The notes below the pieces were generated by a model. It did not search any database and was not told where the DNA came from. It saw only the letters and a list, made by a program, of their open reading frames with translations. This document shows positions 42,369 through 52,686 of a stretch of DNA of 56,901 nucleotides, one piece after another. Position numbers and translations under genes: made by a program. How positions within the stretch are numbered: position 1 is the first letter of the stretch; every line of letters starts with the position of its first letter. The stretch spans positions 1-56,901 of the forward strand of contig JAFCDN010000005.1 in NCBI GenBank assembly GCA_017609625.1. Direction: 5' to 3'. This DNA comes from Candidatus Iainarchaeum sp. Lineage in GTDB: Archaea > Iainarchaeota > Iainarchaeia > Iainarchaeales > 1-14-0-10-31-34.

Positions 42369-43334
42369 TTATTTTTTGATTTTTTTTCTCCAGTAATCCA
42401 GCAAGTCTTCCATTGTTTTTTCAAATGCAATTTCTGGTTTCCAGCCTGTTTGTTTCCTGAATTTACTGGAATCTCCTAATAAAATCTGCACGTCTGAAGG
42501 CCTTAATCTTTTTGGATCCTGTTTTACCTCAAAATCTTTTTTTGTGAGTTCTTTCAGAATGTCAACTATTTTTTGTATTTCATATGCTTTTCCTGAACAA
42601 ATATTATATGCTTCTCCTGGAGTGCATTTTTCTGCTGCAAGCCAGTATGCCCTGACAGTGTCTCTTACATCAGTGTAATCTCTTTTTGCTTTTAAATTTC
42701 CAACCATTAATACTGGTTTTTGTTCTCCTGCTTCTATTAGTGCAACTTGTTTTGCAAAATTGCTTGTGACATATGATTCTCCCCTTCTTGGGCCTTCATG
42801 ATTAAATGCTCTTGTCCTGATTATTTTAAGTCCATAGCTTTTGTTGTATTGGTATCCCAGCAAGTCCATTGCTACTTTGCTTACTCCATAAGGGCTTAAA
42901 GGCCTTAGCGGATTGTCCTCTGTTATTGGCACTTCATCTTCTTTTACCATGCCGTATTCTTCGCTTGAACCTGCAATTTGTATTGTAATGCTCTTGTTGT
43001 TTTTCTTTATTGCTTCAAATAAATTAAGTGAACCAACAATGTTTGTGTTTAATGTTTCCACTGGAGACTTCCATGAGCTTGGAACAAAAGCCTGTGCTGC
43101 CAGATGAAAGATATAATCCGGCTTTACTTCTTCTATTGTTTTGTCAACTGAATAAGAATCTGTTATATCACATTCAACTAATTCAATTTTTTTCATGATC
43201 CCTTTTATATTTGAAAAATCCTCGTTTTTTGTTCTGTATGCTCCGTAAACTTCTCCTAATTTGTTGTTTAGGATGTATTCGCTTAAGTGGCTTCCAACAA
43301 AACCATTTGCTCCTGTTATTAATACTTTTTTCAT
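42369..43334 (-). CDS. GDP-mannose 4,6-dehydratase / GDP-6-deoxyhexose reductase-type SDR
   Basis: From the ATG at 43334, with GGTGATAAA as ribosome binding site, this is 321 residues. Rossmann motif TGANGFVGSHL; catalytic SSEEYG and SPYGVSKVAMD (Tyr-x3-Lys); RTRAFNHEGPRRGESYVTSN and RDYTDVRDTVRAYWLAAE are typical of the GMD/RMD branch acting on GDP-mannose or its 4-keto product. Which of the two reactions it does cannot be told from sequence. It follows the mannose-1-phosphate guanylyltransferase-like fusion gene after 8 nt, so product and substrate are probably linked. Confidence 0.8.
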   Translation of the reverse strand: MKKVLITGANGFVGSHLSEYILNNKLGEVYGAYRTKNEDFSNIKGIMKKIELVECDITDSYSVDKTIEEVKPDYIFHLAAQAFVPSSWKSPVETLNTNIVGSLNLFEAIKKNNKSITIQIAGSSEEYGMVKEDEVPITEDNPLRPLSPYGVSKVAMDLLGYQYNKSYGLKIIRTRAFNHEGPRRGESYVTSNFAKQVALIEAGEQKPVLMVGNLKAKRDYTDVRDTVRAYWLAAEKCTPGEAYNICSGKAYEIQKIVDILKELTKKDFEVKQDPKRLRPSDVQILLGDSSKFRKQTGWKPEIAFEKTMEDLLDYWRKKIKK

Positions 43335-43342
43335 TTTATCAC

Positions 43343-44188
43343 CTAAATTATTCCTTTCCATTCTTTTTTTGCATGTTCATATCTTTGAATTGTGTCAGTG
43401 GGAAACCACTGGCCGTTGTAAACATACCCAAATAATTTTCCTTTTTTGCTTAGATGTGGAAAAACATCTTTTTCTATCAGAGAAAATCCTTTTGGAATCA
43501 TATCAATTACTTCTGGCTTTAGAATATAAGTGCCTGAATTAATTAAATTTGATTTTGGTTGTGCAGGCTTTTCCACAAAACGTTTTATTTCGTTTCCTTC
43601 TACTTCAACTACTCCAAAATTCTTTGGGTCTTTTACAGGAGACAAGGCAATTGTTGCATAAGCTTTGTTTTTTTTGTGAAAAGAATACATGTCGTTTAGG
43701 TTGATGTTTGTCAGGTTGTCTCCGTTAAACATCAAAAATTCTTCTACTAATAAATTCCTTGCAAGTCTTAAAGGGCCTCCAGTACCTAAAGGCTTTTTTT
43801 CAATTACATATTCAATGTTGATTCCGTATTTTTCTCCGTCTCCAAAGTATTCCTGTATTTTTTCTGCGCGGTATCCTAAAGATAAAATCAAATTTTTTAT
43901 GTTGTATTTTGAAAGCAGCTCAATTACATATTCCAGAATTGGTTTTCCTTTTACTTCAATCATTGGTTTTGGCGTGTTGTCTGTTAAAGGTTTTAATCTT
44001 GTTCCTTTTCCTCCTGCAAGAACAAATGCAGTGGAAAGCTCGTTTGTTTGCATTGCTTTTCTTGCCAGATGTTCTATTGCATGGCTTCTGTTCCTTATAT
44101 TTTGCCCGTCTATTTTGTTGTCTATTGTTTTTAGAATGTCTGAGCCGATGTTTATTGTGACTCTTTCTTTTTCGCTTCTTTTGTTCAT
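43343..44188 (-). CDS. Ribbon-helix-helix domain fused to a sugar-phosphate nucleotidyltransferase
   Basis: This encodes 281 residues. Residues about 8-48 are a ribbon-helix-helix DNA-binding domain: strand RVTINIGSDIL, helix KTIDNKIDG, turn NIRNRS, helix HAIEHLARKAM. From about 52 a complete nucleotidyltransferase follows: VLAGGKGTRLKPLTDNTPKPM, EKKPLGTGGPLRLA, FNGDNL, FVEKPAQPKS; the closest type is mannose-1-phosphate guanylyltransferase. The fold and the active site both look intact, so one chain may bind DNA and activate a sugar. A three-half-site operator overlaps its start codon. It is transcribed with the GMD-type gene downstream. Confidence 0.85.
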   Translation of the reverse strand: MNKRSEKERVTINIGSDILKTIDNKIDGQNIRNRSHAIEHLARKAMQTNELSTAFVLAGGKGTRLKPLTDNTPKPMIEVKGKPILEYVIELLSKYNIKNLILSLGYRAEKIQEYFGDGEKYGINIEYVIEKKPLGTGGPLRLARNLLVEEFLMFNGDNLTNINLNDMYSFHKKNKAYATIALSPVKDPKNFGVVEVEGNEIKRFVEKPAQPKSNLINSGTYILKPEVIDMIPKGFSLIEKDVFPHLSKKGKLFGYVYNGQWFPTDTIQRYEHAKKEWKGII

Positions 44189-44209: not shown

Positions 44210-44248
44210 ATATATTCCTTTATAAATTAACCTTCCTTTATTTTTTTT

Positions 44249-45098: not shown

Positions 45099-45641
45099 TT
45101 ATTTATTCTTTTTATTTTGAACCTTACTTGATGCAAAACCTCCAATACAAGAAAGGATAAACCCAAATAACCCATAAATTACCATATTTGACACAGCAGT
45201 AACAATTGAATACATCAAAAATATAATTCCCATAAGCCCTACCCATGGCTGCCCAGAACCTGAGCTAAGTTGAATATTGATCCCAAACAGGTTAAGCACA
45301 GTATCAGTTAATCCAAACGGCAAAACAAAAGCCATGATTATTAGAAATATTCCTAGCAGTAAGCTGCTCAATATTCCTACTCCTGCACCTAATTTTCCAG
45401 CATCAATTAATTTGTAATTAGATTTTTTTACTGCTCTCCAACCCAAAAAAATAAAGTAAGCAGGGATTAAAATAAAAATTATTATCAATAATGCAGATTG
45501 TGCTAGTTCTTTAAAAGTAAAATCAATATTTGAAAATATGTTTAGGGTTATTCCAAGAAACAAAATAACATTAATAAGTTGAATAATAAAAAGCAGAAGT
45601 ATTGAAAATTTATGTTTTAATATTGAACTAATAATTTTCAT
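45099..45641 (-). CDS. Four-helix membrane protein of unknown function
   Basis: This encodes 180 residues with four membrane helices (about 12-35, 48-68, 84-112, 138-170) and a Lys/Ser-rich cytosolic end (ASSKVQNKKNK). There is a small extracytoplasmic loop with Gln/Gly/Ser (NIQLSSGSGQPW). I do not recognise a family. It sits between the two RHH fusion genes and is read in the same direction as they are; a link to their regulation is not shown. Confidence 0.55.
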   Translation of the reverse strand: MKIISSILKHKFSILLLFIIQLINVILFLGITLNIFSNIDFTFKELAQSALLIIIFILIPAYFIFLGWRAVKKSNYKLIDAGKLGAGVGILSSLLLGIFLIIMAFVLPFGLTDTVLNLFGINIQLSSGSGQPWVGLMGIIFLMYSIVTAVSNMVIYGLFGFILSCIGGFASSKVQNKKNK

Positions 45642-45710: not shown

Positions 45711-46505
45711 CTATAAAATCCTTTTTGCTCTTTCGTAATCTTTTTTTGAGTTAATATTGAAATACATTCCCTGAAACGGATACCCTAAAAGAAGTCCTTT
45801 TTCTGCAAGCTTTGGAAACAAGTCTTTTTCGATGCTTTTCATTTTCCTTGAAACATGTTTGAATACTTCTGGCTCAAAAATATAATATCCTGCGTTTATC
45901 AGGTAGCTTCCTGTTTCTCTTTTTGGTTTTTCTTTGAATTCGCTTATTTTTTTTCCCTGCAGCATTGCCACTCCGTAATCCATCGGATTGTTCACTGTTG
46001 TTAATGCAATGGTTGCAATTGATTTGTTTGCCTGATGAAAGGAAAGCATTTCATTTAAATTCAAACTGCATAAACTGTCTCCGTTTACTACTGCAAAAGT
46101 GTCGCTGAAACTGTTTTTCATTCTCATTACAGGCTCTATTGTTCCGGAAGGTTTTTCTAATTCTAAAAAATCTGCTGAACTTTTTTTTTCTTTGAGTTTT
46201 CTGATTATTTTTTCTTTGTTTAAGTCAACACTTACTGTGACCTTTCCGGGATTAAATTCTTGCAGGTAGTCAATTACTTTTTCTATAAGGTATTTTTTGT
46301 TTATTTCCAGAAGAAATCTGCTTTCTTTAAAAGAGTCTTTTCCCCCTGCCAATACTAATGCATTTTTTATCCTGTAATCTGAAAGCGTTTTTGACAAAAG
46401 GTATTCTATTGCCTGGCTTCTGCTTCTGATGCTTAATCCGTCAACTATTCTGTCAACCTGGTTCAGAATATCATTTTTTATTGTGATGGTAACCCTTTTT
46501 CTCAT
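45711..46505 (-). CDS. Ribbon-helix-helix domain fused to a degenerate nucleotidyltransferase
   Basis: This encodes 264 residues. The RHH domain (about 3-42: RVTITIKNDIL, NQVDRIVDG, SIRSRSQAIEYLLSKTL) is very close to that of the protein at 43343. The nucleotidyltransferase part keeps the fold (NALVLAGGK, VVNGDSLCSLNL, EFKEKPKRETGSYLINAGY), but the phosphate-binding signature after GGK is lost: DSFKESRFLLEIN replaces GTRLKPLTDNTPKPM. It may thus bind a sugar nucleotide without catalysis and act as a regulator. An operator identical in layout to that of the first fusion overlaps its start codon. Confidence 0.8.
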   Translation of the reverse strand: MRKRVTITIKNDILNQVDRIVDGLSIRSRSQAIEYLLSKTLSDYRIKNALVLAGGKDSFKESRFLLEINKKYLIEKVIDYLQEFNPGKVTVSVDLNKEKIIRKLKEKKSSADFLELEKPSGTIEPVMRMKNSFSDTFAVVNGDSLCSLNLNEMLSFHQANKSIATIALTTVNNPMDYGVAMLQGKKISEFKEKPKRETGSYLINAGYYIFEPEVFKHVSRKMKSIEKDLFPKLAEKGLLLGYPFQGMYFNINSKKDYERAKRIL

Positions 46506-46526: not shown

Positions 46527-46590
46527 TTCATTCTTATTTTAAAATCTTATTACATTTCTTTATTTACTGATTATCTTTTGGGAGGATATT

Positions 46591-47856
46591 ATGAAGATTT
46601 CTGTTGTTGGAACAGGCTATGTTGGATTGATTACCGGAGCAGGTTTGGCTTTGAAAGGCCATGAAGTGATTTGCGTTGATACTAGTAAAGAAAAGGTTGA
46701 AATGATTAATGAAAAAAAGCCTCCGATTTATGAGAAAGGGCTGAAGGAGGCACTTGAAAAGATCGTTCCTTTTTCTTTGACTGCTTTAACTGACCTAAAA
46801 AAAGCTGTTTTGGATTCTGATGTTTCTTTTGTTTGTGTTGGAACTCCTTGTGATGAAGAAGGCAAATGCGATTTAACTGCTGTAAGGAAAGTTTCTGAAG
46901 AGATTGCTTCTGTGCTGAAAGAAAAGGATTCTTTTCATGTTGTTGTGGTTAAAAGCACTGTTGTTCCTTCCACTACAAAAAAGCTTATTCTTCCTTTGTT
47001 TGAAAAAAATTCCGGAAAAAAGCTTGGAGAGTTTGGCTTGTGCATGAACCCTGAAACTTTAAGGGAAGGTTTTGCTTTGGAAGACTTTTTGAACCCTGAC
47101 AGAATAATTTTAGGGGTTGAAGATGAAAAAACAAAGAATGCAGTAGAAAAAGTTTATGAAAATTTTTCTTCGCAAAAATTTTTTTGCGGTTTTTCTGAAG
47201 CTGAAATGATAAAATATGCTTCAAATTCTTTGCTTGCAACAAAGATTTCTTTTATTAATGAAATCGGGAACATCTGCAAAAAGCTTGGTATTGACACTTA
47301 TAAAGTTTCTGAAGGAGTCGGACTGGATAAACGCATTTCACCGCATTTTTTGAATGCAGGTTTGGGTTTTGGCGGAAGCTGTTTTCCAAAAGATGTTTCT
47401 GCTTTGATTGCAAAAGGAAATGAACTGAAGGTTGAAACTTTTCTTTTGGATTCTGTTATGAAAGTAAATGAACTGCAGCCAAAGCTTTTTTTGGATTCAG
47501 TTAAATCTGAAACAAAATTGAAAGGAAAAAAGATTGCAGTTTTAGGTTTAGCGTTTAAGCCTGGAACTGATGATATAAGGGAAAGCCGTTCAATTCCTGT
47601 GATTCAGGAATTGCTGAAAGAAAAAGCTGAAATTGTTGCGCATGACCCTGAAGCAGAAGAAAACATGAAAAAATTTTTTCCTGAAATTTCTTATGCTGAT
47701 TCTGCACAAAAAGCAGTTGATTCCAGCGGGATGGTTTTTATTTTAACTGAATGGCATGAATTTTCTTCACTGAATTTTGGCAACAAACCTGTTTTTGATG
47801 CAAGGCATATTTTTAAAGAAAGTAGGCCTGTAAATTATAGAGGGTTTTTATGGTGA
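46591..47856 (+). CDS. ugd: UDP-glucose 6-dehydrogenase
   Basis: This encodes 421 residues. N-terminal NAD site VVGTGYVGLITGAGLALKGHE; FVCVGTPCDEEGKCD; VKSTVVPSTT; the catalytic Cys264 in GFGGSCFPKDVSAL; C-terminal LAFKPGTDDIRESRS. It oxidises UDP-glucose to UDP-glucuronate. A strong ribosome binding site, GGGAGGAT, precedes the ATG. It leads an operon continuing with galU (7-nt overlap) and the UDP-xylose synthase gene. It is divergent from the second RHH fusion gene and probably under operator B. Confidence 0.94.
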   Translation: MKISVVGTGYVGLITGAGLALKGHEVICVDTSKEKVEMINEKKPPIYEKGLKEALEKIVPFSLTALTDLKKAVLDSDVSFVCVGTPCDEEGKCDLTAVRKVSEEIASVLKEKDSFHVVVVKSTVVPSTTKKLILPLFEKNSGKKLGEFGLCMNPETLREGFALEDFLNPDRIILGVEDEKTKNAVEKVYENFSSQKFFCGFSEAEMIKYASNSLLATKISFINEIGNICKKLGIDTYKVSEGVGLDKRISPHFLNAGLGFGGSCFPKDVSALIAKGNELKVETFLLDSVMKVNELQPKLFLDSVKSETKLKGKKIAVLGLAFKPGTDDIRESRSIPVIQELLKEKAEIVAHDPEAEENMKKFFPEISYADSAQKAVDSSGMVFILTEWHEFSSLNFGNKPVFDARHIFKESRPVNYRGFLW

Positions 47857-48737
47857 AAAAAACTTTTGAAGGAGCAAAAAGGGTAAGGAAAGTTGTAATT
47901 CCTGCAGCGGGTTTTGGAACAAGATTTTTGCCTGCATCTAAGGTTGTTCCAAAAGAAATGTTTCCTGTAGTAGACAAGCCTGCAATTCAGTATCTTGTAG
48001 AAGAAGTTGTTGCTTCTGGTATTGAAGACATTTTGATTATTACTTCAAAGGATAAAACTTCAATTGAAGATCATTTTGACAGAAATTTTGAGTTGTATGA
48101 AAAGCTTGAAAAAAAAGGACAGAAAAGCGAGGTAGCTAAACTCAAAAAGATTGATGATTTGGCTGACATTCATTATATTCGACAAAAAGAAGCTTTGGGT
48201 TTAGGCCATGCGGTTTTGTGTGCAAAAAAGCATATTGGAAATGAGCCTTTTGGGGTGATGTTAGGAGACGATTTAATTCTTTCAGAAAAGCCTGCTTTGA
48301 GAAAATTAATTGACATTTATGAAAAGTATAATTCTTCTGTTTTATGCGTGCAGGAAATTCCAAAAAAAGATATTTCCAGGTTTGGGGTAATTAAATTTAA
48401 AAGAGAAAAAGGAGAGATTGTGGTAGAGGATATGGTTGAAAAGCCTCCTATAGGCAAAGCTCCGTCAAATTTAGCTATTGTTGGCAGGTATTTATTGAAG
48501 CCGGAAATTTTTGGAATACTTGAAGAGATTCCTTTTGGCAAAGGAAATGAACTCCAGTTAACTGATGGCCTTCATGTGTTGAATGAAATAGATAAAATGA
48601 TGGCTTATGAAATTAAAGACGGAGAATGGCTTACAATTGGAGATAAGATGAGTTATTTTAAGGCAATGGTTAGATATGTTTTGCAAAGGCCTGATATGAG
48701 AAATGAAGCTGCTGCTTATCTTAAAAATTTGATTTAA
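47850..48737 (+). CDS. galU: UTP-glucose-1-phosphate uridylyltransferase
   Basis: This encodes 295 residues. VVIPAAGFGTRFLPASKVVPKEM is the GalU N-terminal signature; IRQKEALGLGHAVLCAKK, GDDLIL, MVEKPPIGKAPSNLAIVGRYLL and GKGNELQLTDGL follow. It makes UDP-glucose, the substrate for the Ugd encoded just upstream. The ATG lies inside the end of ugd (ATGGTGA), so the two are translationally coupled. Confidence 0.93.
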   Translation: MVKKTFEGAKRVRKVVIPAAGFGTRFLPASKVVPKEMFPVVDKPAIQYLVEEVVASGIEDILIITSKDKTSIEDHFDRNFELYEKLEKKGQKSEVAKLKKIDDLADIHYIRQKEALGLGHAVLCAKKHIGNEPFGVMLGDDLILSEKPALRKLIDIYEKYNSSVLCVQEIPKKDISRFGVIKFKREKGEIVVEDMVEKPPIGKAPSNLAIVGRYLLKPEIFGILEEIPFGKGNELQLTDGLHVLNEIDKMMAYEIKDGEWLTIGDKMSYFKAMVRYVLQRPDMRNEAAAYLKNLI

Positions 48738-48746
48738 GGATTGTTT

Positions 48747-49679
48747 ATGAAAAAAGCCCTTGTTTCTGGTGGTGCAGGTTTTATTGGAAGCCATTTATGC
48801 CAGGCTTTGCTGGAAAAAAAAGAAGTTTTTTGTGTTGACAACCTGATTTCAGGAAAAAAAGAAAACATTGAACACTTGCTGGAAAAAGACAATTTTGTTT
48901 TTCTTCAGGAAGATGTTAATTCTTTTTCTTTTGAAGAAAAAGTTGATGAAGTTTTTCATTTAGCTTCTCTTGCGTCTCCTGTAGATTATTATTCCAATCC
49001 AGTTGAAACAATGCTTGTAGGTTCTGTTGGAACAAAAAACCTTTTGGATTTGGCAGTAAAAAATAAAGCAAAGTTTTTGTTTACTTCCACTTCAGAAATT
49101 TACGGTGATCCTTTAGAGCACCCGCAGAAAGAATCTTATTGGGGGAATGTAAATCCAATTGGAGAGCGTTCCTGCTATGATGAATCAAAAAGGTTTTCTG
49201 AAGCTTTGATTAAAGCTTATGAAAAAAAATTTTCTTTTAAGGGAAAGATTGTAAGGATTTTCAATACTTATGGCCCTAAAATGAAAGCTGATGACGGAAG
49301 AGTTGTTCCAAACTTTATTATTCAGGCTTTAAAGAACAAGCCTTTGACTGTTTATGGTTCAGGAAAGCAGACAAGAAGTTTTTGTTTTATTTCTGATATG
49401 GTTTTTGGTTTGCAGAAAACAATGGATTCTTCTTTTTTTGGGCCAATAAATTTAGGCAGCCCACAAGAATATACTATCCTTGAATTTGCAGAAAAAGTAA
49501 AAGAATTAACCGGAAAGAATATTTCTTTTGATTTCAAACCTGCTTTAAAAGACGATCCAAAACAGAGAAAGCCTGATATTTCTCTTGCAAAAAAGCAATT
49601 AAGCTGGAAACCGCGGGTTTTCTTGGAAGAAGGCCTTAATTTGACAATCGATTACTTTAAAAAAACTCAAAAACTTTAA
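48747..49679 (+). CDS. UDP-glucuronate decarboxylase (UDP-xylose synthase)
   Basis: From the ATG at 48747, AAGGA at 6-nt spacing, this is 310 residues. SGGAGFIGSHLCQALL; HLASLASPVDYYSNP; TSEIYGDPLEHPQKESYWGNV; NPIGERSCYDESKR (Tyr-x3-Lys); RIFNTYGPKMKADDGRVVPNF are the UXS hallmarks. It decarboxylates UDP-glucuronate to UDP-xylose. Together with galU and ugd directly before it, the operon would lead from glucose-1-phosphate to UDP-xylose. Confidence 0.87.
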   Translation: MKKALVSGGAGFIGSHLCQALLEKKEVFCVDNLISGKKENIEHLLEKDNFVFLQEDVNSFSFEEKVDEVFHLASLASPVDYYSNPVETMLVGSVGTKNLLDLAVKNKAKFLFTSTSEIYGDPLEHPQKESYWGNVNPIGERSCYDESKRFSEALIKAYEKKFSFKGKIVRIFNTYGPKMKADDGRVVPNFIIQALKNKPLTVYGSGKQTRSFCFISDMVFGLQKTMDSSFFGPINLGSPQEYTILEFAEKVKELTGKNISFDFKPALKDDPKQRKPDISLAKKQLSWKPRVFLEEGLNLTIDYFKKTQKL

Positions 49680-49712
49680 TTCTTTTGTTTTATTAATTTT
49701 TGTGGTGAAAAA

Positions 49713-50171
49713 GTGATTAAAGGGATTAAAATAAAAAAACTGAAAAGGATTAATGATGAAAGAGGCTTTTTAATGGAAATCTTAAGAAACGATGATGAAA
49801 TTTTTGAAGAATTTGGTCAAGCGTATGTTACTTGTGTTAAGCCAGGTTATGTTAAAGGCTGGCATATGCATGAAAATCAGACAGACCATTTTGTCTGTGT
49901 TAAAGGAAACGCTAAAGTTGTTTTGTGCGACAAAAGAAAAGACTCTGAAACTTTTAATGAAGTAAATGAATTTTTTCTGGGAGAAAAAAACAAAATCCTT
50001 CTTAAGATTCCAAAAAAAGTAATGCATGGTTTTGAGTCAGAAGACGACAAAGAGGCTTTAATTTTAAATTTTCCGACAAAAACTTATGATTATGAAAAGC
50101 CGGATGAGATTAGACTTCCTTTTGATTCAAAAGAAATTACTTACTCTTGGAAGGCAAAGAAAGGCGGTTAA
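49713..50171 (+). CDS. rmlC: RmlC-like cupin, dTDP-4-dehydrorhamnose 3,5-epimerase type (short form)
   Basis: This encodes 152 residues with a GTG start supported by GGTGA a few bases upstream. INDERGFLMEILRNDDEIFEEF, PGYVKGWHMHENQTDHFVCVKG, VVLCDKRKDSETFNEVNEFFL and IPKKVMHGFESEDDKEALILN are typical cupin blocks of short RmlC/WxcM relatives. It probably epimerises the 4-keto sugar at C3 and C5; 3,4-ketoisomerases are close relatives. It is first in the rml run, one base before rmlB. Confidence 0.8.
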   Translation: MIKGIKIKKLKRINDERGFLMEILRNDDEIFEEFGQAYVTCVKPGYVKGWHMHENQTDHFVCVKGNAKVVLCDKRKDSETFNEVNEFFLGEKNKILLKIPKKVMHGFESEDDKEALILNFPTKTYDYEKPDEIRLPFDSKEITYSWKAKKGG

Positions 50172-51128
50172 ATGAATTTACTTGTAACTGGAGGGGCTGG
50201 CTTTATTGGAAGCAATTTCATAAAGCATTTTTTTTCTCTTTATCCTGAAGCAAAAATAATCAATTTAGATAAGCTGACTTATGCCGGAAGGCTGGAAAAC
50301 CTAAAAGAAATTGAAAAAAACAAAAACTACAAGTTTATTAAAGGTGATATCTGCGATAAAAAAGCAGTTGAAAAAGCCTCAAAGAATGTTGATGTAATAA
50401 TTAATTTTGCTGCTGAATCTCATGTAGACCGTTCTATTACCGGGCCTGAACAATTTATTAAAACAGACATTTTTGGAACTTTTGTTTTATTGGAGGAAGC
50501 AAGAAAAAAAGATTTAGAGTTCATTCAGATTTCTACTGATGAAGTTTATGGAAGTATTGAAAAAGGATTGTTTTCTGAAGAAAGCCCTTTAATGCCTTCT
50601 TCTCCTTATTCTGCCTCTAAAGCCGGAGCAGACAGACTTGTTTTTTCTTATTTCAAAACTTATGGTTTGGATGTAAAAATCACCAGAAGTTCCAATAACT
50701 TTGGTCCAAATCAGTTTCCTGAAAAATTGATTCCTTTGTTTATTACAAACCTTTTGGAAGGAAAAAAGGTTCCAGTGTATGGTGACGGAAAAAATGTAAG
50801 AGACTGGATTTTTGTTGAAGACAACTGCGCTGCTGTTGTTAAGGTAATGGAAAAAGGAAAGAAAGGAGAAACATACAATGTCGGAGGAGGAACTGAAAAA
50901 ACAAATTTGGAGATCACAGAATTTATTTTAAAAGAACTGAATAAAGAAAAAGAAATGATTGAGTTTGTTGAAGACAGAAAAGGGCATGATAAAAGATATG
51001 CATTGGAATGTGATAAAATAAAAGCTCTTGGATTTAAATCAGAGCATTCTTTTGAACAGGCATTAAAAGAAACTGTTTCTTGGTACAAGGAAAATTCCTG
51101 GTGGTGGAAGCCATTAAAGAAAAACTGA
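50172..51128 (+). CDS. rmlB: dTDP-glucose 4,6-dehydratase
   Basis: This encodes 318 residues. LLVTGGAGFIGSNFIKHF; LDKLTYAGRLENL; NFAAESHVDRSITGP; ISTDEVYGSIEKG (catalytic Asp-Glu); SPYSASKAGADRL (Tyr-x3-Lys); TRSSNNFGPNQFPEKLIPLF are canonical RmlB. It converts dTDP-glucose to dTDP-4-keto-6-deoxyglucose. Its start directly follows the stop of the cupin gene, and its end overlaps the rmlD start region. Confidence 0.94.
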   Translation: MNLLVTGGAGFIGSNFIKHFFSLYPEAKIINLDKLTYAGRLENLKEIEKNKNYKFIKGDICDKKAVEKASKNVDVIINFAAESHVDRSITGPEQFIKTDIFGTFVLLEEARKKDLEFIQISTDEVYGSIEKGLFSEESPLMPSSPYSASKAGADRLVFSYFKTYGLDVKITRSSNNFGPNQFPEKLIPLFITNLLEGKKVPVYGDGKNVRDWIFVEDNCAAVVKVMEKGKKGETYNVGGGTEKTNLEITEFILKELNKEKEMIEFVEDRKGHDKRYALECDKIKALGFKSEHSFEQALKETVSWYKENSWWWKPLKKN

Positions 51129-51979
51129 TTTTTTTGATTGGAAAAGGTTTTTTGGGAACAAAAATCGTTTCTGTCTTTAAAGAAAAGGGAATCAAAGTAG
51201 TTACTGCAGGTTTAGAGGATGAAGTGAAATATTTTTTGGACATTACAGACGAAAAATCAATGATTTTTTTGTTTAAAGATTTAAACCCTGATGTTGTTTT
51301 GCTTCCAGCAGGAATCACTAATGTTGATTTATGTGAAACAAACAGAAAAAAAGCAAATCAGGTTAATGTTGATGGCACAAGAAATGTAGTGGATGCATGC
51401 AGGGCATTTAATTCAAAGCTCTTATTTTTTTCTACTGACTATGTTTTTGACGGAAAAAAAGGAAATTACACTGAAAAAGAAAAAGTTCATCCAATAAATT
51501 TTTATGGTGAAACAAAAGCTCAGGGAGAAAAAATGGTTCAGGATTTGCCTGATTATTTGATTGCAAGGGTTTCAGCTTTATATGGATTTAATTCAAAACA
51601 AGACAAAAGCACTTTTGTAAGGTATGCAATAGAAGAATTGCAAAACAGTAAGCAGGTTTTGGTTTCAAACAACATTAACTGTCCAACTTTGATTGATGAC
51701 ATTGCAGAAGCATTGTATTTAATGCTGAAAAAAAATTTTTCTGGTTTGTTTAATGTTTCGGGAAGTGAAGCTTGTTCTAAAAAAGAATTATTGTTAAAAA
51801 CATGCAAGGTTTTTGATTTAGATCCTTCTTTAATAAAACAGGCTGAAAGCATTTCCGGATGGAAAGCAAAAAGGCCATTCAACACTTCTCTGGACATAAC
51901 AAAAATTCAGTTGCAGGGAATTAAGATGAGTTCGGTTGAAGAAGGTTTAATTAAGATGAAAAAGGATTTGAGAATATGA
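51101..51979 (+). CDS. rmlD: dTDP-4-dehydrorhamnose reductase
   Basis: GTG at 51101, with AAGGA 9 nt before it, is the chosen start (292 residues); a TTG at 51080 and a GTG at 51104 are alternatives, and the gene overlaps rmlB by about 28 nt. The nucleotide-binding loop is shortened (LIFLIGKGFLGTKIV). ITNVDLCETNRKKANQVNVDG, FFSTDYVFDGKKGNYTEKEKV and NFYGETKAQGE (Tyr-x3-Lys) are RmlD signatures. It reduces the 4-keto group to yield dTDP-L-rhamnose or a related 6-deoxyhexose. Confidence 0.87.
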   Translation: MVEAIKEKLIFLIGKGFLGTKIVSVFKEKGIKVVTAGLEDEVKYFLDITDEKSMIFLFKDLNPDVVLLPAGITNVDLCETNRKKANQVNVDGTRNVVDACRAFNSKLLFFSTDYVFDGKKGNYTEKEKVHPINFYGETKAQGEKMVQDLPDYLIARVSALYGFNSKQDKSTFVRYAIEELQNSKQVLVSNNINCPTLIDDIAEALYLMLKKNFSGLFNVSGSEACSKKELLLKTCKVFDLDPSLIKQAESISGWKAKRPFNTSLDITKIQLQGIKMSSVEEGLIKMKKDLRI

Positions 51980-52686
51980 AAGGAGTTGTTTTAGCTGGAG
52001 GAACCGGTTCTCGTTTGTTTCCTTTAACTAAAGTTACAAACAAGCACCTTTTGCCTGTATACAATAAGCCAATGATTTATTATCCAATTGAAACACTGCT
52101 TAACGCAGGAATAAAAGATATTTTGATTGTTTCAGGAAAAGAGCATGCAGGAGGCTTTCTGAAACTGCTTGGCTCAGGAAAAGAATTTAATGCAAAATTC
52201 ACTTATGAAATGCAGGAAGAAGCAGGAGGAATAGCTCAAGCATTATCTTTGGCAGAAGATTTTGCTGACGGAGAAAAAGTTGTAGTTGTTTTAGGAGATA
52301 ATGTTATTGAAGATTCAATTAAAGATTCAGTTGAAGAATTCCATAAAACTGATTCAGCGTTTATTTTTTTGAAGGAAGTTCCTGATGCAGAAAGATTTGG
52401 TGTAGTGGAATTGAATGGAAGCAAAGTAGTTTCAATTGAAGAAAAACCAAAAAAACCCAAATCAGATTTTGCTGTAACAGGAATTTATATGTATCCTTTT
52501 GAAGTGTTTGAAATAATAAAAACATTAAAGCCTTCTGATAGAGGGGAGCTTGAAATAACTGATGTAAACAATTATTTTGTTAAAAAAGGAAAAATGAAAG
52601 CAAATTTTCTGAAAGGTTTTTGGACTGATGCAGGAACTTTTGAATCTTTATTCAGGGCAACAGAACTTGTAAGAAAAAGGCAATAA
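51976..52686 (+). CDS. rmlA: Glucose-1-phosphate thymidylyltransferase (short form)
   Basis: This encodes 236 residues. MKGVVLAGGTGSRLFPLTKV, NKHLLPVYNKPMIYYPIETL, VVLGDNVIED and SIEEKPKKPKSDFAVTGIYM are the RmlA signatures; the final oligomerisation region of long bacterial RmlA is missing, as usual for the roughly 240-residue archaeal form. It makes dTDP-glucose, entry point of the pathway. The ATGA overlap with rmlD completes a four-gene rmlCBDA operon. Confidence 0.92.
   Translation: MKGVVLAGGTGSRLFPLTKVTNKHLLPVYNKPMIYYPIETLLNAGIKDILIVSGKEHAGGFLKLLGSGKEFNAKFTYEMQEEAGGIAQALSLAEDFADGEKVVVVLGDNVIEDSIKDSVEEFHKTDSAFIFLKEVPDAERFGVVELNGSKVVSIEEKPKKPKSDFAVTGIYMYPFEVFEIIKTLKPSDRGELEITDVNNYFVKKGKMKANFLKGFWTDAGTFESLFRATELVRKRQ

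Follow-up and report, generated by a model that had tools for sequence, protein, structure and literature searches.

An archaeal ribbon-helix-helix/sugar nucleotidyltransferase fusion: a probable autogenous repressor-enzyme beside a predicted pseudoenzyme regulator

INTRODUCTION

Could an enzyme that makes sugar nucleotides also be the repressor of its own gene? The question is raised by a gene of Candidatus Iainarchaeum sp. whose product, P0001, carries a ribbon-helix-helix (RHH) domain in front of a sugar nucleotidyltransferase. The gene lies in a stretch of 56,901 nucleotides of contig JAFCDN010000005.1, and this whole stretch is referred to here as the window. The host group consists of tiny, uncultured archaea, and to our knowledge almost nothing has been established experimentally about regulation in DPANN archaea. 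Domain architecture, patterns of catalytic residues, conservation and exclusivity of operators, and gene order were determined by computation, with all data drawn from one phylum of metagenome-assembled genomes.

RESULTS AND DISCUSSION

An RHH domain precedes an intact active site in P0001

The original prediction, a DNA-binding RHH domain fused to a catalytically complete nucleotidyltransferase, was confirmed by Pfam, by the RHH_1 domain match and by the presence of R64, K74, D157 and D265 (Table 1). The translated open reading frame begins with ATG, and residues 54-274 match NTP_transferase (PF00483) with an E-value of 5.7e-46. RHH_1 scores 17.2 bits against the whole protein (residues 9-44), slightly under the Pfam cut-off of 20.5, and 22.1 bits, over that cut-off, when the domain is searched by itself; the corresponding segments of relatives all match RHH_1 (18 of 18).

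Table 1. Genes, domains and predicted regulatory elements in and around the two fusion genes (positions in the window)
Feature	Position	Strand	Evidence
P0001 gene, RHH + catalytically complete sugar nucleotidyltransferase, 281 aa	43343..44188	-	ORF, translation, Pfam
RHH domain of P0001, aa 9-46, RVTINI strand, NRS turn	44051..44164	-	RHH_1, NikR profile match
Nucleotidyltransferase domain of P0001, aa 54-274	43367..44029	-	PF00483, Foldseek
Predicted P0001 operator TCATAaataaTATGAaaaatTATGA; last half-site overlaps ATG start codon	44185..44209	-	Exact pattern match, orthologue conservation
TATA-box-like TTTATAAA above P0001 operator	44219..44226	-	Sequence; position conserved across promoters
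GDP-mannose 4,6-dehydratase-like SDR, overlaps P0001 gene end	42369..43361	-	PF16363 E 1.7e-87
Xylose-isomerase-like TIM barrel gene, divergent from P0001	44249..45064	+	PF01261 E 3.5e-13
P0002 gene, RHH + degenerate nucleotidyltransferase (predicted inactive), 264 aa	45711..46505	-	ORF, paralogy, residue loss
RHH domain of P0002, aa 4-41, RVTITI strand	46383..46496	-	RHH_1, NikR profile match
Pseudo-nucleotidyltransferase domain of P0002 (predicted), aa 48-262	45720..46364	-	PF00483 E 4e-22
Predicted P0002 operator TCATAtagtgTATGAtagtaTATGA; last half-site overlaps ATG start codon	46502..46526	-	Exact pattern match
Palindromic TATA-like ATTTTAAAAT between P0002 and divergent Ugd	46536..46545	.	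Sequence
UDP-glucose/NDP-sugar 6-dehydrogenase (Ugd), divergent from P0002	46591..47856	+	NDP-sugDHase 442 bits, cut-off 189.8
GalU (UTP-glucose-1-phosphate uridylyltransferase), after Ugd	47850..48737	+	TIGR01099 over cut-off
Epimerase + RmlC, RmlB, RmlD, RmlA, rest of sugar-nucleotide cluster	48741..52686	+	Pfam, NCBIfam

The active site of P0001 is intact at the G-x-G-T-R (R64), PKP (K74) and GDN (D157) motifs and at the C-terminal D265, and in the alignment all five P0001-type proteins retain the catalytic residues, with one R replaced by K. The phosphate-binding and catalytic residues of the GDP-mannose pyrophosphorylase VTC1 are Arg13, Lys23, Asp111, Glu195-Lys196 and Asp219 (PMC9168903), for which mapping by motif gives R64, K74, D157, E239-K240 and D265 as the P0001 equivalents. 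The predicted structure matches VTC1 with a Foldseek E-value of 5e-23, and GDP-mannose pyrophosphorylases are its nearest relatives and best PDB matches. P0001 reaches no NCBIfam functional cut-off, the mannose-1-phosphate guanylyltransferase model NF052502 giving 197.9 bits vs the 440 needed. GTP and mannose-1-phosphate, named in the original prediction, are candidate substrates of P0001. Its C-terminal domain would probably make an NDP-sugar, as part of the repressor-enzyme reading set out below.

AlphaFold monomers, predicted from a 6-sequence alignment and with no dimer, have visible RHH helices and no strand, with a pLDDT of about 55; the poor resolution of this domain is apparently due to the small alignments. 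The full-length fusion recurs in three related genomes (81, 78 and 65% identity), and within the genus purifying selection acts on the RHH of P0001 (dN/dS near 0.1, with dN of 0.12-0.19 and dS of 1.0-1.6). Since relatives carry the fusion, making four genomes in all, and the dN/dS of the RHH is low, an assembly artefact or a mis-called start was ruled out.

A paralogous fusion has a degraded active site

A second fusion, P0002, was overlooked in the original prediction and lies 1.5 kb from P0001, to which it is 37% identical over 270 aa, along the whole length and with the RHH included. Eighteen genomes of the phylum's order have orthologues of P0002 (E about 1e-130 or better). The protein keeps its PF00483 match without intact catalytic residues: in all 17 aligned P0002-type proteins the GxGTR loop has been shortened and its motif lost, and Asn replaces the C-terminal metal Asp (D265 equivalent), while P0001-type proteins (5 of 5) and stand-alone enzymes (12 of 12) retain the Asp. 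The GD aspartate and the lysine of the EKP motif are invariant in the same 17 proteins, and the PKP lysine is Lys or Arg. This pattern of residues is that of a pseudoenzyme that may have retained ligand binding, and P0002 could act as a sensor because catalysis appears lost and much of the sugar-side pocket is kept.

The RHH of P0001 is 53% identical to that of P0002 in the same genome and on average 51% identical to the P0002-type RHHs of other genomes, so recent copying from P0002 within this genome is unsupported. We also dropped a toxin-antitoxin or defence role for P0001 and P0002, neither of which was matched by any PADLOC model.

Exact operator sites are confined to the fusion genes

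Upstream of the fusion genes lies a common pattern, TCATA-N5-TATGA-N5-TATGA, which the original prediction had not noted. Exact copies number two in the 1.35-Mb genome, at the start codons of P0001 and P0002, and no copy with one mismatch was found there; at up to three mismatches the same genome has 59 matches, vs 41 for a reversed-pattern control. Operator conservation, which the original prediction had named as a source of support, was found across 87 genomes of the phylum: the exact pattern occurs 14 times, every time at an RHH-nucleotidyltransferase gene, and the reversed-pattern control has no exact match in the same genomes. When promoters were scored out of 15, all 17 of the P0002 type reached 13-15 (12 perfect) and those of the P0001 type gave 15, 15, 14, 14 and 12 (four of five at 14 or more); none of 28 promoter regions from RHH-less related enzymes, a set in which a few genes are counted twice, scored above 10. 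Conserved operator footprints of this kind argue for DNA binding by the fusions, and judged from them the fusion proteins very probably act as on-off switches of their own genes. A profile of the 18 RHH segments finds Escherichia coli NikR as its best PDB match (E 8.6e-6), followed by Pyrococcus NikR (1.4e-3); the P0002 strand RVTITI resembles RVTITL of NikR, and the half-site published for NikR is also that of the fusion genes.

P0002-type promoters share an archaeal TATA-like TTT-AA box 13-18 bp above the operator (-18 to -13), so the operator would cover the region where a leaderless transcript probably starts, and its placement below the TATA box suggests a repressing position. Because the operator overlaps the start codon, the ATG part of the last half-site is constrained anyway. 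The element between P0002 and Ugd, a perfect palindrome, might serve as the TATA box for either direction of transcription. Immediately before the middle TATGA, 82% of P0002-type sites have a G and none of the five P0001-type sites does, and the RHH strand reads RVTINI, RVTVNI or RVTVNL in the P0001 type vs RVTITI in P0002, which, in a comparison where the P0001-type genes are mostly of one family, hints that each fusion protein prefers its own site through a possible shift of specificity.

That only the two fusion genes and their divergent neighbours carry the exact operator points to local autogenous control. The earlier proposal that one protein controls sugar-nucleotide genes thus holds in part: regulation is probable and well supported by conserved operators, but a broad regulon was dropped, since the exact genome-wide search gave two sites only.

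Gene neighbourhoods of the two fusions

The dehydratase-like gene that overlaps the end of the P0001 gene scores 190 bits with TIGR01472, under the cut-off of that model, and the two genes probably form an operon. Several stand-alone orthologues of P0001 also adjoin a TIM-barrel gene, and owing to this common neighbour the stand-alone enzymes look like RHH-less positional orthologues of P0001. Ugd is divergent from the P0002-type gene in 17 of 17 loci and is probably a second target of P0002 control. Between the two fusion genes lies a 180-aa protein (45099-45641, minus strand) without a Pfam match, which looks hydrophobic and is probably a membrane protein.

A proposed autogenous circuit and its alternatives

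We consider it probable that P0001 is a bifunctional autogenous repressor-enzyme that works beside a pseudoenzyme regulator, P0002. The N-terminal RHH of P0001 would dimerise, with further dimers stacking one helical turn apart, and RHH dimers would occupy the three TATGA half-sites between the TATA box and the P0001 start codon, blocking transcription of P0001 and the following dehydratase-like gene. P0002 would be the regulatory paralogue, with the same RHH and operator and with its nucleotidyltransferase domain as sensor; it would repress itself and, acting within the intergenic region common to both genes, probably tune the divergent Ugd-GalU-Rml operon. An NDP-sugar, NTP or sugar phosphate in the nucleotidyltransferase pocket would change the affinity for DNA. 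We infer the DNA binding, the repression, the ligand gating and its sign, and the identity of the substrate.

In most relatives only the P0002-type protein has an RHH and the enzyme stands alone; this, together with the strand pattern common to both RHHs and the operator common to both genes, would also fit an arrangement in which P0001 is mainly an enzyme that uses its RHH to form hetero-oligomers with P0002, the latter being the only DNA-binding regulator and reading the state of the enzyme. However, the P0001 gene has an operator of its own, absent from the stand-alone orthologues, and P0001-type fusions occur without a detected P0002-type gene in genomes G002 and G016 (92 and 86% complete), and we regard this arrangement as unlikely. 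Somewhat less credible still is that both fusions are enzymes, P0002 being a working nucleotidyltransferase with a changed active site. Equivalents of D157 and K207 are indeed retained in 17 of 17 P0002-type proteins, K or R stands at the position of K74, and the sugar pocket keeps its G-T without exception, but active relatives retain both the loop and the C-terminal Asp that these proteins lack, and the lost positions correspond to Arg13 and Asp219 of VTC1, in the phosphate site and among the catalytically critical residues (PMC9168903).

The sites might instead be read by another protein, either NikR or a separate RHH protein, with the fused RHH as a dimerisation module only. Escherichia coli NikR binds GTATGA-N16-TCATAC (PMC7055735), and its half-site GTATGA is identical to the one at the fusion genes; the genome also encodes other small RHH proteins. 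Nevertheless, no NikR_C gene was found in the 13 genomes with exact operator sites, which excludes NikR as the reader and makes the fused RHH the natural one; the C-terminal domain of the fusions is PF00483, and this genome gave no NikR_C match. The sites occur only at fusion genes, RHH-less enzymes have none, and a separate reader is therefore very improbable. Least credible of all is that the motif belongs to the core promoter or the translation start of leaderless genes and is no operator, although it lies at the expected initiation region and overlaps ATG: a general element would be expected at many genes, and the exact motif is found only at fusion genes. In L048 the motif lies over 100 nt above the RHH, and L107 has a tandem array of four TCATAC copies, 10 bp apart, at 47-77 nt before its RHH codons.

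The autogenous circuit that we favour would be small and testable, comprising two proteins, two 25-bp sites built on one defined half-site, and two paralogues that divide catalysis from sensing. If the ligand gating is true, a transcription factor has been built from a sugar-nucleotide enzyme and could be used as a nucleotide-sugar biosensor, and the evolution from enzyme to regulator would be traceable among relatives that have both functions, one or none.

Comparison with known systems

The closest parallel in mode is PutA, trifunctional proline utilisation A, an autogenous repressor with an N-terminal RHH on a metabolic enzyme (PMC5293562). An RHH-fused enzyme acting in this way is what we propose for P0001, which matches a PutA-like expectation in its architecture, its active-site residues and the position of the predicted operator at its own gene, all read from sequence; PutA differs in being an unrelated bacterial flavoenzyme of proline catabolism. 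We know of no pseudoenzyme paralogue of PutA. NikR resembles the fusions in having the closest RHH by profile, the GTATGA half-site and an N-terminal RHH followed by a C-terminal sensor domain, but its C-terminal domain binds nickel where the fusions have a nucleotidyltransferase, and its half-sites are inverted and 16 bp apart, whereas the fusion operators have three half-sites 10 bp apart.

GMPPA and GMPPB, the best PDB matches of P0001, are described as a catalytically inactive, product-binding regulatory paralogue and an active enzyme (PMC11228364; PMC9168903), and this active/inactive pair resembles P0001 and P0002. In contrast to the fusions, GMPPA and GMPPB regulate by protein-protein contact without a DNA-binding domain; P0001 (281 aa) and P0002 (264 aa) stop at the end of the catalytic domain and are too short to hold the left-handed beta-helix. 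GalF, named 'GalU regulator GalF' in NCBIfam, is likewise a sugar nucleotidyltransferase paralogue named as a regulator, but is without a DNA-binding domain, and its catalytic capability is disputed (PMC4643126).

A DNA-binding domain is fused to a nucleotide enzyme in NadR and to an enzyme-derived Nudix sensor domain in NrtR. Both thereby resemble the fusions, and both differ in having HTH-type DNA-binding domains, other enzyme folds and a role in NAD metabolism; NrtR is also covered in PMC6800001. A literature search of incomplete coverage found no report of RHH paired with a sugar nucleotidyltransferase, and by analogy the mode of action would be one already known from PutA and NadR, the pair of folds being without found precedent.

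Distribution and history of the fusions

The P0002 type forms one clade in the nucleotidyltransferase tree (support 100/100), P0001 groups with the stand-alone enzymes (94/89), and the short degenerate fusions of G012, G036, G042 and G047 branch outside together with two fusions of G086. RHH fusions occupy most of the deep branches, which favours an old fusion whose RHH was later lost in the stand-alone enzymes, the tree support for a single such loss being weak (70/47). We give about an even chance to the wider reading that in this archaeal family the enzyme making a sugar nucleotide is the repressor of its own gene, duplication then producing a pseudoenzyme transcription factor (the P0002 type, sensing a nucleotide sugar) and RHH-less enzymes, with the lineage of the window keeping the bifunctional form beside the regulator. 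If this is true, the family would provide a direct protein-based sensor of sugar nucleotides for surface-polysaccharide genes in DPANN archaea.

A scan of named genomes returned close relatives, one bacterial stand-alone enzyme (49%) and a single weak match in a planctomycete, and nothing else; viral contigs gave no match, and the plasmid matches listed begin after the RHH.

The short, strongly degenerate fusions make up a third RHH-nucleotidyltransferase group (L106, L107, L108 and L109, from G012, G036, G042 and G047), and each is divergent from an epimerase. The repeat score of L107 was reached by none of 5000 shuffles; L108, L109 and L105 have weaker upstream repeats than L107, and no repeats or operator were found upstream of the distant fusions L104 and L106. 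The two fusions of G086, another family of the same class (L104:3944-4813, plus strand, and L105:2283-3188, minus strand), are nearer to an intact active site, and one of them has dehydratase, Ugd and GalU genes as its divergent neighbours; a TCATAN5TATGA pair is present far upstream of L105 but not of L104. The bacterial stand-alone enzyme (L038:2730-3464, Candidatus Magasanikbacteria), 49% identical to the catalytic domain of P0001, is nested among archaeal stand-alone enzymes in the tree, which suggests transfer between CPR bacteria and these archaea.
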